A DNA stretch of 64,000 nt from Psychroserpens sp. SPM9 (lineage in GTDB: Bacteria; Bacteroidota; Bacteroidia; Flavobacteriales; Flavobacteriaceae), in assembly GCF_025153525.1 (NCBI RefSeq), contig NZ_JANZNR010000003.1:372001-436000 (forward strand). The letters are read 5' to 3'. The position numbers were made by a program, and so were the translations under genes. How positions within the stretch are numbered: position 1 is the stretch's first letter; each line of letters starts with the position of its first letter. Positions 57,900 through 59,163 of the stretch are shown in pieces. The notes under the pieces are model-generated. The model made no database searches and was not told where the DNA came from. It saw nothing but the letters and a program-made list of their open reading frames with translations.

Positions 57900-57959
57900 G
57901 AAAAATTAATTTAAGCTTAAATTTAATAATAAAAGTTATCAATTTTTAAAGAAAAGGTA

Positions 57960-57967
57960 TATATTTG
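57960..57967 (+). promoter_or_regulatory. -7 promoter element of the tRNA operon
   Basis: TATATTTG, an exact TAnnTTTG match, 59 bases upstream of the tRNA-Pro 5' end. A second match, TAATTTTG, lies at 57993-58000. Neither has a clear -33 box, so which one is used is uncertain. Confidence 0.4.
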
Positions 57968-58026
57968 CACCTCGAAATTTTAGAGAAATTATTAATTTTG
58001 TAACTCTAAAAATAGATAACCATTTT

Positions 58027-58101
58027 CGGGGTGTAGCGTAGCCCGGTTATCGCGCCGCGTTTGGGACGCGGAGGTCGCAGGTTCGAATCCTGCCACCCCG
58101 A
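58027..58101 (+). tRNA. tRNA-Pro (anticodon TGG)
   Basis: A 75-base cloverleaf. The acceptor CGGGGTG (58027-58033) pairs with CACCCCG (58094-58100), with discriminator A. The anticodon stem CCGCG / CGCGG encloses the seven-base loop TTTGGGA, giving anticodon TGG. The T arm contains GGTTCGAATCC. CCA is not encoded. It is followed after nine bases by tRNA-Arg. Confidence 0.96.
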
Positions 58102-58110
58102 CTTTATTGA

Positions 58111-58184
58111 GGGCTCTTAGCTCAGCTGGATAGAGCACCTCCCTTCTAAGGAGGCGGTCGAAGGTTCGAATCCTTCAGGGCTCA
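58111..58184 (+). tRNA. tRNA-Arg (anticodon TCT)
   Basis: A 74-base cloverleaf. The acceptor GGGCTCT pairs with AGGGCTC including two G-U pairs. The anticodon stem CCTCC / GGAGG encloses CTTCTAA, anticodon TCT (reads AGA/AGG). The T arm is GAAGGTTCGAATCCTTC; the discriminator is A and CCA is not encoded. Its 3' 30 bases (58155-58184) are the beginning of the 359-bp repeat that follows. Confidence 0.95.
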
Positions 58185-58187
58185 CAG

Positions 58188-58215
58188 AATCCCTTTCATT
58201 TATTTGGAAGGGATT
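58188..58215 (+). terminator. Hairpin terminator after tRNA-Arg (repeated in each cassette)
   Basis: Stem AATCCCTTTC (58188-58197) / GGAAGGGATT (58206-58215), one G-U pair, eight-base loop, followed by a T-rich tract. Identical hairpins lie at 58547-58574 and 58906-58933. The first would end the tRNA transcript before the nuclease gene. Confidence 0.75.
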
Positions 58216-58242
58216 TCTTATTTTAATTTGACATGATAACTG

Positions 58243-58491
58243 ATGTGTTTTACTTATATATTGTATTCTGAGTCTATAGATCGTTACTACGTTGGCTATA
58301 CTTGTGACGATTTAGAAGAAAGGTTACGCAAACATAATACTAATCATAAAGGGTATACAGGTCAAACTAATGATTGGCGAATAGTCTATAAAGAATCATA
58401 CAATAGTAAAAGCGAAGCTTATGCAAGAGAGCGTTTTATAAAGCAAAAAAAGTCACGACATTTTATAGAACGTCTCATTGCCGACACATAG
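58243..58491 (+). CDS. GIY-YIG nuclease-domain protein, copy 1
   Basis: An 82-residue protein consisting only of a GIY-YIG nuclease domain: YILYSESIDRYYVGYT holds the GIY/YIG equivalents (YIL and YVG), LEERLRKHN the catalytic Arg, and SEAYARERFIKQ the metal-binding Glu. This is the size of the UPF0213/Slx1-type single-domain group. The TAG stop falls in TAGAGCA, which matches the D-arm 3' strand of tRNA-Arg (58131-58137). There is no fused DNA-binding domain. The target is unknown; the setting suggests tRNA-gene DNA. Confidence 0.88.
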   Translation: MCFTYILYSESIDRYYVGYTCDDLEERLRKHNTNHKGYTGQTNDWRIVYKESYNSKSEAYARERFIKQKKSRHFIERLIADT

Positions 58492-58543
58492 AGCATTCCG
58501 CATTTAAGCGGAACGGTCGAAGGTTCGAATCCTTCAGGGCTCA
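58489..58543 (+). pseudogene. 5'-truncated tRNA-like sequence, copy 1
   Basis: From TAGAGCA onward it follows the tRNA-Arg layout: a perfectly paired arm TTCCGC / GCGGAA (58496-58501, 58508-58513) with loop ATTTAA where the anticodon arm should be, then 30 bases identical to the tRNA-Arg variable loop, T arm and 3' acceptor strand. The 5' acceptor strand and most of the D arm are replaced by nuclease coding sequence, so no cloverleaf can form. Confidence 0.8.
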
Positions 58544-58601
58544 CAGAATCCCTTTCATTTATTTGGAAGGGATTTCTTGTTTTAATATGACATGATAACT
58601 G

Positions 58602-58850
58602 ATGTGTTTTACTTATATATTGTATTCTGAGTCTATAGATCGTTACTACGTTGGCTATACTTGTGACGAGTTAGAAGAAAGGTTACGTAAACATAATACT
58701 AATCATAAAGGGTATACAGGTCAAACTAATGATTGGCGAATAGTCTATAAAGAATCATACAATAGTAAAAGCGAAGCTTATGCAAGAGAGCGTTTTATAA
58801 AGCAAAAAAAGTCACGACATTTTATAGAACGTCTCATTGCCGACACATAG
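58602..58850 (+). CDS. GIY-YIG nuclease-domain protein, copy 2
   Basis: An 82-residue near-duplicate of the preceding nuclease, with one amino acid change (Asp to Glu in CD(D/E)LEER) and one silent change (CGC to CGT). All catalytic positions (YIL/YVG, Arg of LEERLRKHN, Glu of SEAYARER) are intact, so both copies may be functional. The TAG stop again overlaps the D-arm remnant of the following tRNA-like copy. It is preceded by the second terminator hairpin (58547-58574). Confidence 0.88.
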   Translation: MCFTYILYSESIDRYYVGYTCDELEERLRKHNTNHKGYTGQTNDWRIVYKESYNSKSEAYARERFIKQKKSRHFIERLIADT

Positions 58851-58902
58851 AGCATTCCGCATTTAAGCGGAACGGTCGAAGGTTCGAATCCTTCAGGGCT
58901 CA
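58848..58902 (+). pseudogene. 5'-truncated tRNA-like sequence, copy 2
   Basis: Identical over its 55 bases to the copy at 58489, displaced by exactly 359 bases. It has the same TTCCGC / GCGGAA arm and tRNA-Arg 3' part. Confidence 0.8.
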
Positions 58903-58960
58903 CAGAATCCCTTTCATTTATTTGGAAGGGATTTCTTGTTTTAATTTGACATGATAACTG

Positions 58961-59008
58961 ATGTGTTTTACTTATATATTGTATTCTGAGTCTATAGATC
59001 GTTTTTGA
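58961..59008 (+). pseudogene. GIY-YIG nuclease gene, copy 3, truncated after 14 codons
   Basis: The first 14 codons match copies 1 and 2 exactly (MCFTYILYSESIDR). The sequence then diverges at 59004 and a TGA follows one codon later. The downstream DNA is AT-rich and non-coding, so the array ends here by deletion or incomplete duplication. Confidence 0.85.
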
Positions 59009-59163
59009 TGTTTTATTCAAATAAACTCATAGTTTTATTTCCAAATCTTGCAAACTAGTATAGAAATTCTTGTTTTTCAGTAAATTAGTGTTGTATTTCA
59101 TCGGTTTTCTGAATCTTAACTTGCATTACATCGAGTATTTTGGTCACTTAATCGATATTTTTG

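Follow-up and report, generated by a model that had tools for sequence, protein, structure and literature searches.

Our results suggest that a very small selfish element, which invades tRNA genes without destroying the tRNA, is present in the stretch of DNA analysed here, 64,000 nucleotides (nt) from the 3.8-Mb genome of Psychroserpens sp. SPM9 (bases 372001-436000 of contig NZ_JANZNR010000003.1; the whole stretch is called the window). The putative element is a tandemly repeated 359-nt unit at a tRNA-Arg(TCT) gene, and in the list of open reading frames (ORFs) the one plausible gene in this unit encodes an 82-amino-acid (aa) GIY-YIG protein. On sequence evidence, it is probably a minimal, recombinase-free mobile element, akin to a free-standing GIY-YIG homing endonuclease gene, that resides in tRNA genes. 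If this is true, a single-gene selfish element lives phylum-wide in essential genes, with built-in repair of the damage and in two mirror forms.

The intact tRNA-Arg(TCT) (58111..58185, + strand; ARAGORN and Rfam RF00005) is the resident gene and the presumed target. As described in the initial annotation, whose coordinates were confirmed, the 359-nt unit occurs twice in full and once truncated: unit 1 (58155..58513) starts within the intact tRNA-Arg, unit 2 occupies 58514..58872, and the third unit (58873..59003, 131 nt) stops approximately 15 codons into the GIY-YIG gene, all of them on the + strand. Units 1 and 2 show 4 differences over the 359 nt, and the third copy has 1 difference from either. 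Each full unit carries, in this order, tRNA-Arg positions 45-75, a terminator-like hairpin, the GIY-YIG gene, tRNA positions 20-27 and a palindrome. The first hairpin, read from the sequence as AATCCC..GGGATT with a T run, lies 3' of the intact tRNA-Arg (58188..58220, +). The gene copies (58243..58491 and 58602..58850, both +) form two 82-aa ORFs that differ by 1 residue, and copy 1 matches Pfam GIY-YIG (PF01541, expectation value (E) 1.3e-14). The displaced tRNA-Arg piece of positions 20-27 (ATAGAGCA) is found at 58488..58495 (+), where it overlaps the stop codon of the gene, and again at 58847..58854 (+). It is followed by the palindrome TTCCGCATTTAAGCGGAA, which has no strand and takes the place of the anticodon arm (58496..58513 and 58855..58872), and by the displaced 3' half, positions 45-75, at 58514..58544 (+, an exact match) and 58873..58903 (+). 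The initial annotation had seen a D- and anticodon-arm remnant after the gene; positions 20-27 are indeed tRNA-Arg, but the supposed anticodon arm is this palindrome, which is unrelated to tRNA-Arg and not derived from it. In the window's genome TTCCGCN0-12GCGGAA has five occurrences, two of which are those in the window units.

The arrangement in the window is more than chance, because a like anatomy is found at many loci. In the host family, at least 79 of 149 genomes match the window protein at E 1e-3, often as direct arrays; these loci come from one query (32 loci and 80 further stretches), and the set leaves out some listed matches, such as G085:C26, G120:C2, G083:C10, G138:C47 and G071. 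A first tree comprised 129 near-full domains, of which 58 had a tRNA no more than 150 nt away; the gene followed the tRNA in 31 and preceded it in 27, and 58/58 were on the same strand; another 27 of the 156 hidden Markov model (HMM) matches were not near-full, contig ends accounting for some. A profile built from 29 linked sequences matched 197 of 296 genomes sampled across the phylum. Of the 49 phylum loci, which are the best profile matches and include repeats (L228 is the place of L064, and L230 and L246 are one place), 46 lie no more than 1 kb from a tRNA on their own strand, and 3 show none. Moreover, the window protein found 45 loci among 84,980 species genomes, in Oceanihabitans, Xanthomarina, Psychroserpens, Mariniflexile, Bizionia, Winogradskyella, Chryseobacterium, Pedobacter, Mucilaginibacter and others; a same-strand tRNA was present within 600 nt in 36 of these loci (33 before the gene, 3 after it) and absent in 9. 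All three sets contain tRNA-linked homologues, as had been suggested in the initial annotation for Bacteroidota.

We pooled these loci, one gene per locus, and excluded tRNA-SeC, stop and unknown-type calls. From 206 scanned loci, we dropped 17 that lack a full GIY domain and 5 whose domain sequence was a repeat. Placement in the 184 loci that remained, with distinct GIY domains, is not random relative to tRNA genes, random placement being what the initial annotation had named as speaking against its proposal: a tRNA was present within 400 nt in 140 of them, and in 140/140 the gene was on the tRNA strand. Note that some of these tRNA calls may be hairpin copies (e.g. L236, L319). The gene stands after the tRNA in 99 of the linked loci and before it, in the 5' form, in 41, and the loci span 13 isotypes and 21 anticodons. 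The picture of a minimal unit, with no recombinase in it, linked to tRNA genes and leaving an intact tRNA is supported. The 44 unlinked loci are 23 members of a control clade and 21 others. This control, a related Bacteroidota clade with the C-terminus NPxWxDLS, was delimited by that motif only after the first tree had shown it to be unlinked; 0/23 of its members have a tRNA within 400 nt, and one lies 487 nt from a tRNA-His.

A search for a tRNA fragment past the gene had been proposed with the initial annotation. In 113 of 139 loci, part of the neighbouring intact tRNA was found again past the gene, on the side facing away from that tRNA (on the opposite strand, in 1 of 139). In 102 of the 139, no tRNA of a different isotype in the set matches this fragment as well as the cognate tRNA does. 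Two mirror forms exist, tRNA-GIY-3' half and 5' half-GIY-tRNA. The initial idea that the element carries a tRNA 3' end was incomplete, the 5' mirror form (41/140) being unforeseen. Retention was profiled over 103 remnants, all from tRNAs 73-78 nt long. The 3' form (n=75) retains the T arm at 0.92, the acceptor 3' side at 0.88, the anticodon arm at 0.53, the D arm at 0.43 and the acceptor 5' side at 0.07, and the 5' form (n=28) retains the acceptor 5' side at 0.86, the D arm at 0.90, the anticodon arm at 0.46 and the T arm at 0.13. In both forms the drop begins around the anticodon arm, and the parts kept are complementary. The outer ends of the loci are therefore mostly genuine tRNA ends, which fits a resident tRNA split near the anticodon arm by an insertion.

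Tandem arrays, as seen in the window, are common: at least 2 gene copies, partial ones counted, are present in 46 of the 140 linked loci. Full copies in arrays are spaced 303-652 nt apart (median 350; 56 spacings). In the 7 arrays compared, the copies are near-identical, differing by 0-9 nt across about 220 nt. Moreover, several contigs start or stop at these GIY-YIG/tRNA loci. The near-identity and the contig ends would also fit a tRNA region that simply duplicated by slippage or unequal crossing over, an immobile tRNA-adjacent GIY-YIG gene being carried along and the fragments being decaying duplicates. We consider this quite improbable, because duplication leaves unexplained why one gene family is found at 21 anticodons, why some loci with one gene copy have a cognate half beyond it, why there are mirror forms and empty orthologous sites, and why the intact tRNA and the displaced half can carry different T-stem alleles. 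In L088:3658-12925 (G123), tRNA-Met is followed by five full GIY-YIG copies and, some 7 kb further downstream, by two more, one partial and one full.

Empty sites in relatives, a comparison likewise proposed at the outset, were found at two fixed positions. The marker gene neighbouring the window site is present in 23/23 members of the genus. Full genes follow tRNA-Arg in three of them (the window genome, L118 and L119) and a decayed gene in L122; tRNA-Arg(TCT) without the gene is present in 11 (L117, L120, L123-L129, L135, L136), and in the other 8 the site either runs into a contig end or has no visible tRNA-Arg. This is not the conserved single-copy syntenic gene considered as the alternative in the initial annotation. 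The gene in L267, from an uncultured Psychroserpens, is identical in sequence to that of L118 from the window's genus. At the second site, a tRNA-Ala locus in genus code g127 (probably Flavobacterium), the gene occupies 9 of 30 loci, in broken form in two of them (L314, L335), and the other 21 are empty. In both cases the occupied and empty alleles were seen between species, not strains.

The tRNA-Ala site also provides an allele comparison. The empty loci show two T-stem alleles, with a C-G or a T-A pair, and in 3 of the 5 readable occupied loci (L319, L323, L327) the allele of the intact tRNA is not that of the displaced 3' half; L314, L335, L338 and L339 are not cleanly readable, L339 resembling a decayed form of the other allele. 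The outermost pieces of L323, its leftmost hairpin copy and its rightmost half, jointly make the commonest haplotype of the empty loci, and the intact tRNA between them is of another haplotype, as predicted by the insertion of an element with its own tRNA. Upstream of this site, 1-3 tandem tRNA-Ala copies occur in which a TCCCGA..TCGGGA hairpin replaces the anticodon arm; they were present in 8/9 occupied and 3/21 empty loci (Fisher p 2e-4; the stretch reads N in empty L322). A CTTGCC anticodon arm was seen in 7/9 occupied and 11/21 empty loci, raw counts from which we claim no association.

The GIY tree (184 domains, 73 columns, many forks unresolved) suggests that GIY lineages are mainly target, that is tRNA, lineages, because the tRNA label falls far below shuffled labels and the host family barely below them: tRNA identity changes 42 times over 140 tips (200 shuffles: mean 98, minimum 92), and 38 times over the 108 family-coded tips, 75 of them from one family (shuffle mean 82). 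The form, 3' or 5', changes 16 times against a shuffle mean of 36, which means that both forms can occur within one target lineage.

A palindrome is often present in the displaced half. The commonest, TCCCGA..TCGGGA, occurs in 47 of 139 remnant windows, 41 of these in the 3' form, where it tends to stand in the place of the anticodon arm. CCTGCC..GGCAGG occurs in 13 of 139, in several 5'-form loci directly after tRNA position 22. Any of eight motifs was found in 87/139 remnant windows vs 23/139 windows on the other side of the tRNA, the motifs being derived from the same data and the other-side windows including upstream hairpin-tRNA copies. In an unbiased deletion test, an interrupting segment was present in 82 of 118 fragments and was palindromic, with a stem of at least 5, in 42 of these 82; on average 26% of same-length segments in the stretch searched score as high as the one found, a signal weaker than the eye suggests. 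A hairpin lies within 35 nt of the remnant in 70/75 and 24/28 cases in the two forms, against 15/75 and 20/28 in the control, which is a bad one because terminators fall on both sides.

These palindromes raise another explanation, namely that the GIY-YIG protein mobilises palindromes resembling repetitive extragenic palindromes (REPs), as REP-associated tyrosine transposases (RAYTs) do. Anticodon arms, hairpins themselves, would be preferred sites, and the autonomous copy would consist of the gene and its tRNA halves. The bias towards remnants is in line with it, as is the number of palindromes per genome. TCCCGA..TCGGGA has a median count of 9 in 30 genomes with a window-protein match and of 1 in 15 without (p 1e-5), and the CCTGCC form is present in 25/30 vs 4/15 (medians 2 vs 0, p 2e-5); the genomes were hand-chosen and not phylogenetically matched, and at least one of those without (G032) has profile matches. 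Furthermore, the pattern CCTGCCTN0-20AGGCAGG occurs at two places in the window's genome, both within tRNA 5' fragments, so that in that genome it does not look like the mere insertion of a very common repeat. The CCTGCCT palindrome is neither purely element-bound nor random, because it is confined to tRNA fragments in the window's genome yet dispersed in others. Some dispersed copies are hairpin-bearing fragments of tRNA-Trp, tRNA-Ala, tRNA-Pro or tRNA-Asp that lack the gene, as this explanation would allow. However, most palindrome copies examined away from the known loci have no tRNA or GIY nearby, and GIY lineages track tRNA identity, and this explanation appears improbable to us.

It is hardly credible, in our view, that the locus is an RNA-based system in which the hairpin-tRNA is a working tRNA-like RNA, a decoy or antitoxin, and the GIY-YIG protein its effector. 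The tandem hairpin-tRNA copies do retain the acceptor 5' side, the D arm and a hairpin at the anticodon position, but the part of the copy nearest the intact tRNA varies or decays (judged by eye), none of the window remnants was called a tRNA by Rfam even at E up to 1, and mostly the outer half is retained, which matches the prediction from insertion.

The protein itself is assigned to the GIY-YIG nuclease superfamily by its sequence and its predicted fold. The catalytic residues of this superfamily are Tyr, Tyr-x-Gly, Arg and Glu, and among the 29 tRNA-linked sequences Y14, G16, R25 and E61 are invariant and Y3 nearly so. The best sequence-profile match is UPF0213 (1zg2, E 2.5e-14), followed by SLX1 (E 1.2e-6) and, weakly, by I-TevI and UvrC; small UPF0213-type GIY-YIG proteins and Slx1 are thus the nearest solved sequences. 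The predicted fold (mean predicted local distance difference test score 87) has UPF0213, the I-TevI catalytic domain and Slx1 among its first matches, with weak E values of 0.06-0.4. NCBIfam, PADLOC and PHROGs contain no family that matches the window protein, and no homologue was found in 50,697 phage records (tblastn, E 1e-3) or in plasmid records (E 1e-3). Another member, in L048, weakly matched the PADLOC models UzuA and PDC-S14 (best E 1e-4); it also matched, at E 0.002, a single PHROG without an assigned function.

The ratio of nonsynonymous to synonymous substitution rates (dN/dS) was about 0.11 in 2 of 11 pairs; 8 of the 11 are saturated at synonymous sites and 1 is identical. Such constraint, together with the recurrent arrays, could indicate a host-domesticated nuclease that maintains, amplifies or corrects tRNA genes, for example raising the tRNA dose under a tRNA-cleaving attack. 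A precedent would be phage T6, in which tRNA amplification driven by the nuclease SegB allows escape from the Septu system (available text of PMC13096335). We regard domestication as very unlikely here, since what is repeated in the window array is the gene with a tRNA fragment, not a full tRNA, presence is patchy within genera, and partial copies are frequent among the HMM matches, even if contig ends explain some of the 27.

On the reading that we favour, a minimal homing element in tRNA genes, the small nuclease would break a particular tRNA gene at the anticodon-arm region, and homologous repair off an occupied allele would bring in the gene and, along with it, the tRNA half that is missing. 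One intact tRNA would be rebuilt and the other half of the resident pushed to the far side of the gene, the half that is rebuilt deciding whether the locus would read tRNA-GIY-3' half or 5' half-GIY-tRNA. The anticodon arm of the displaced half is often interrupted or replaced by a palindrome, through which this copy would no longer serve as a target or as a tRNA. The intact tRNA would keep the target, and further breaks with unequal repair may generate the tandem arrays. Genes would later decay or vanish, leaving the hairpin-bearing tRNA copies. The interpretation in the initial annotation was largely right; unforeseen were the palindromes in the displaced halves, the gene-free hairpin-tRNA copies and GIY lineages that track the tRNA. 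A bolder version is possible, if doubtful: a separate class of single-gene minimal mobile element whose spread through Bacteroidota depends on cutting tRNA genes in two at the anticodon arm, and which heals them with a 5' or 3' half and tags the displaced half with a scatterable palindrome recognised by the nuclease, so that an enzyme of about 80 residues would drive homing, tandem amplification and REP-like palindromes.

Several observations weigh against the homing reading. The intact tRNA adjoining the gene should remain cuttable, and no immunity is evident. In sequence and predicted fold the 82-aa protein is the catalytic domain alone, with no separate DNA-binding domain seen, which leaves the choice of target unexplained. 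A cognate fragment at the required score is missing in 26 of 139 loci, and a cognate match of equal score lies on the other side of the tRNA in 48 of 139 (40/98 and 8/41 in the two forms), a control that is not clean because neighbouring tRNA genes and upstream hairpin copies were left unmasked. Twenty-one homologues outside the control clade have no called tRNA within 400 nt; 8 of them are within 500 nt of the end of the examined sequence and 13 are not. The palindromes also occur away from tRNAs, dispersed in many genomes. Host family clusters slightly on the tree, with 28 changes over 108 tips (shuffle mean 32, minimum 30). At the window site the tRNA-Arg copies are identical over the compared half, which makes the allele test uninformative there, and at the tRNA-Ala site the intact tRNA and the displaced half share the allele in L310 and L316, as seems to be the case in the poorly readable L335; the differences seen elsewhere are few and could come from gene conversion. 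Patchiness alone could reflect vertical inheritance and loss.

Among known systems, SegB, a nuclease of the tRNA region in phages T4 and T6, is the nearest analogue of the tRNA-linked family. In the available text of its report, SegB of phage T6 is a free-standing GIY-YIG homing endonuclease that cuts inside tRNA genes and lies near phage tRNAs of many isotypes more often than expected, and its active site and the phage recombination genes are required for tandem 718-bp repeats of tRNA-Tyr and segB, formed via homologous recombination (PMC13096335). The window family shares with it the GIY-YIG nuclease, the adjacency to tRNAs and the tandem repeats, but it is bacterial and SegB is phage-borne, and no displaced cognate half or palindrome is described for SegB in that text (PMC13096335). 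Moreover, the SegB motif RAWTSGAAC, which we read as the complement of the tRNA T loop, fits this loop and not the anticodon arm, a further point against the proposed mechanism (available text of PMC13096335). We do not place the window protein in the SegB family, as it has no match in the 50,697 phage records at E 1e-3 and none among the PHROGs, SegB itself not having been aligned.

Homing enzymes such as I-TevI carry an added DNA-binding part, and the window protein was not assigned to the classical I-TevI/Seg type because it shows no separate domain of this kind. Like a group I intron with a homing endonuclease gene, the element has a nuclease gene that would target the anticodon region of a tRNA gene; unlike in such an intron, tRNA function would be preserved by the supplied tRNA half and not by splicing, and Rfam found no group I intron in window positions 57900-59150 at E up to 1. 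Integrase-encoding islands and prophages at tRNA 3' ends bring a tRNA end that rebuilds the target, and leave a displaced fragment. A tRNA end that would rebuild the target and a displaced fragment are seen here too, but in a 359-nt unit without an integrase, with the break at the anticodon-arm region and with a 5' mirror form. RAYT transposases, which are HUH enzymes, mobilise REP palindromes; similarly, the number of dispersed palindromes here correlates with a small nuclease gene, but the enzyme is of the GIY-YIG type and many palindrome copies lie within tRNA gene remnants. Tie to tRNA genes also separates the family from the related NPxWxDLS clade. Thus, the family resembles free-standing GIY-YIG homing elements in outline, we do not file it as a member, and a distinct class is a possibility. 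Among the matches listed in the open-licence literature, a scope outside which most subscription papers fall, no description of a tRNA-linked GIY-YIG family was found. As a natural system, the family could help to explain how tandem arrays at tRNA genes form, where the REP-like palindromes of Bacteroidota originate and how an enzyme of some 80 residues that has no DNA-binding domain might recognise a single tRNA gene.

Other copies and fragments are present in the window's genome. One further, divergent GIY-YIG homologue lies at tRNA-Met in the mirror form, in the order tRNA-Met positions 1-22, 30-nt palindrome, GIY-YIG gene and intact tRNA-Met. Between tuf and tRNA-Trp (L113:2667-2860), a lone CCTGCCTGCCGGCAGGCAGG stands within a tRNA-Trp 5' fragment without a GIY-YIG gene; positions 1-9, the palindrome and positions 10-15 lie directly upstream of the intact tRNA-Trp. 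This solo palindrome is a possible footprint of a lost element, and a comparable one occurs at tRNA-Asn in another genome (L192). In L365:640-1200 (C22), several T-arm-like pieces and a TCCCGA hairpin are clustered, with no tRNA called by ARAGORN, in what looks like a graveyard of tRNA fragments. In L364:1626-1796 (C38), TCCCGAATCNAGTTCGGGA is present in each of three repeats spaced 76 nt apart, which are not recognisably tRNA-derived. In genome G012, near a contig end, three tandem tRNA-Asp-like copies with a hairpin occur without a GIY-YIG gene (L377:747-977). A tRNA-Val element resembling those of Bacteroidota is found on a contig labelled as a Streptomyces griseus metagenome-assembled genome (L274), probably a mislabelled bin.

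Finally, annotators may recognise these loci by their tRNA fragments, by the several contig ends that fall there and, in the window, by a spurious antisense ORF. This 80-aa ORF (58778-59020, - strand) runs across the tRNA remnant and contains SPEGFEPST, which we take to be a spurious translation of the T-arm complement. The neighbouring tRNA-Pro(TGG) (58027..58102, +; ARAGORN and Rfam RF00005) lies outside the repeat unit.

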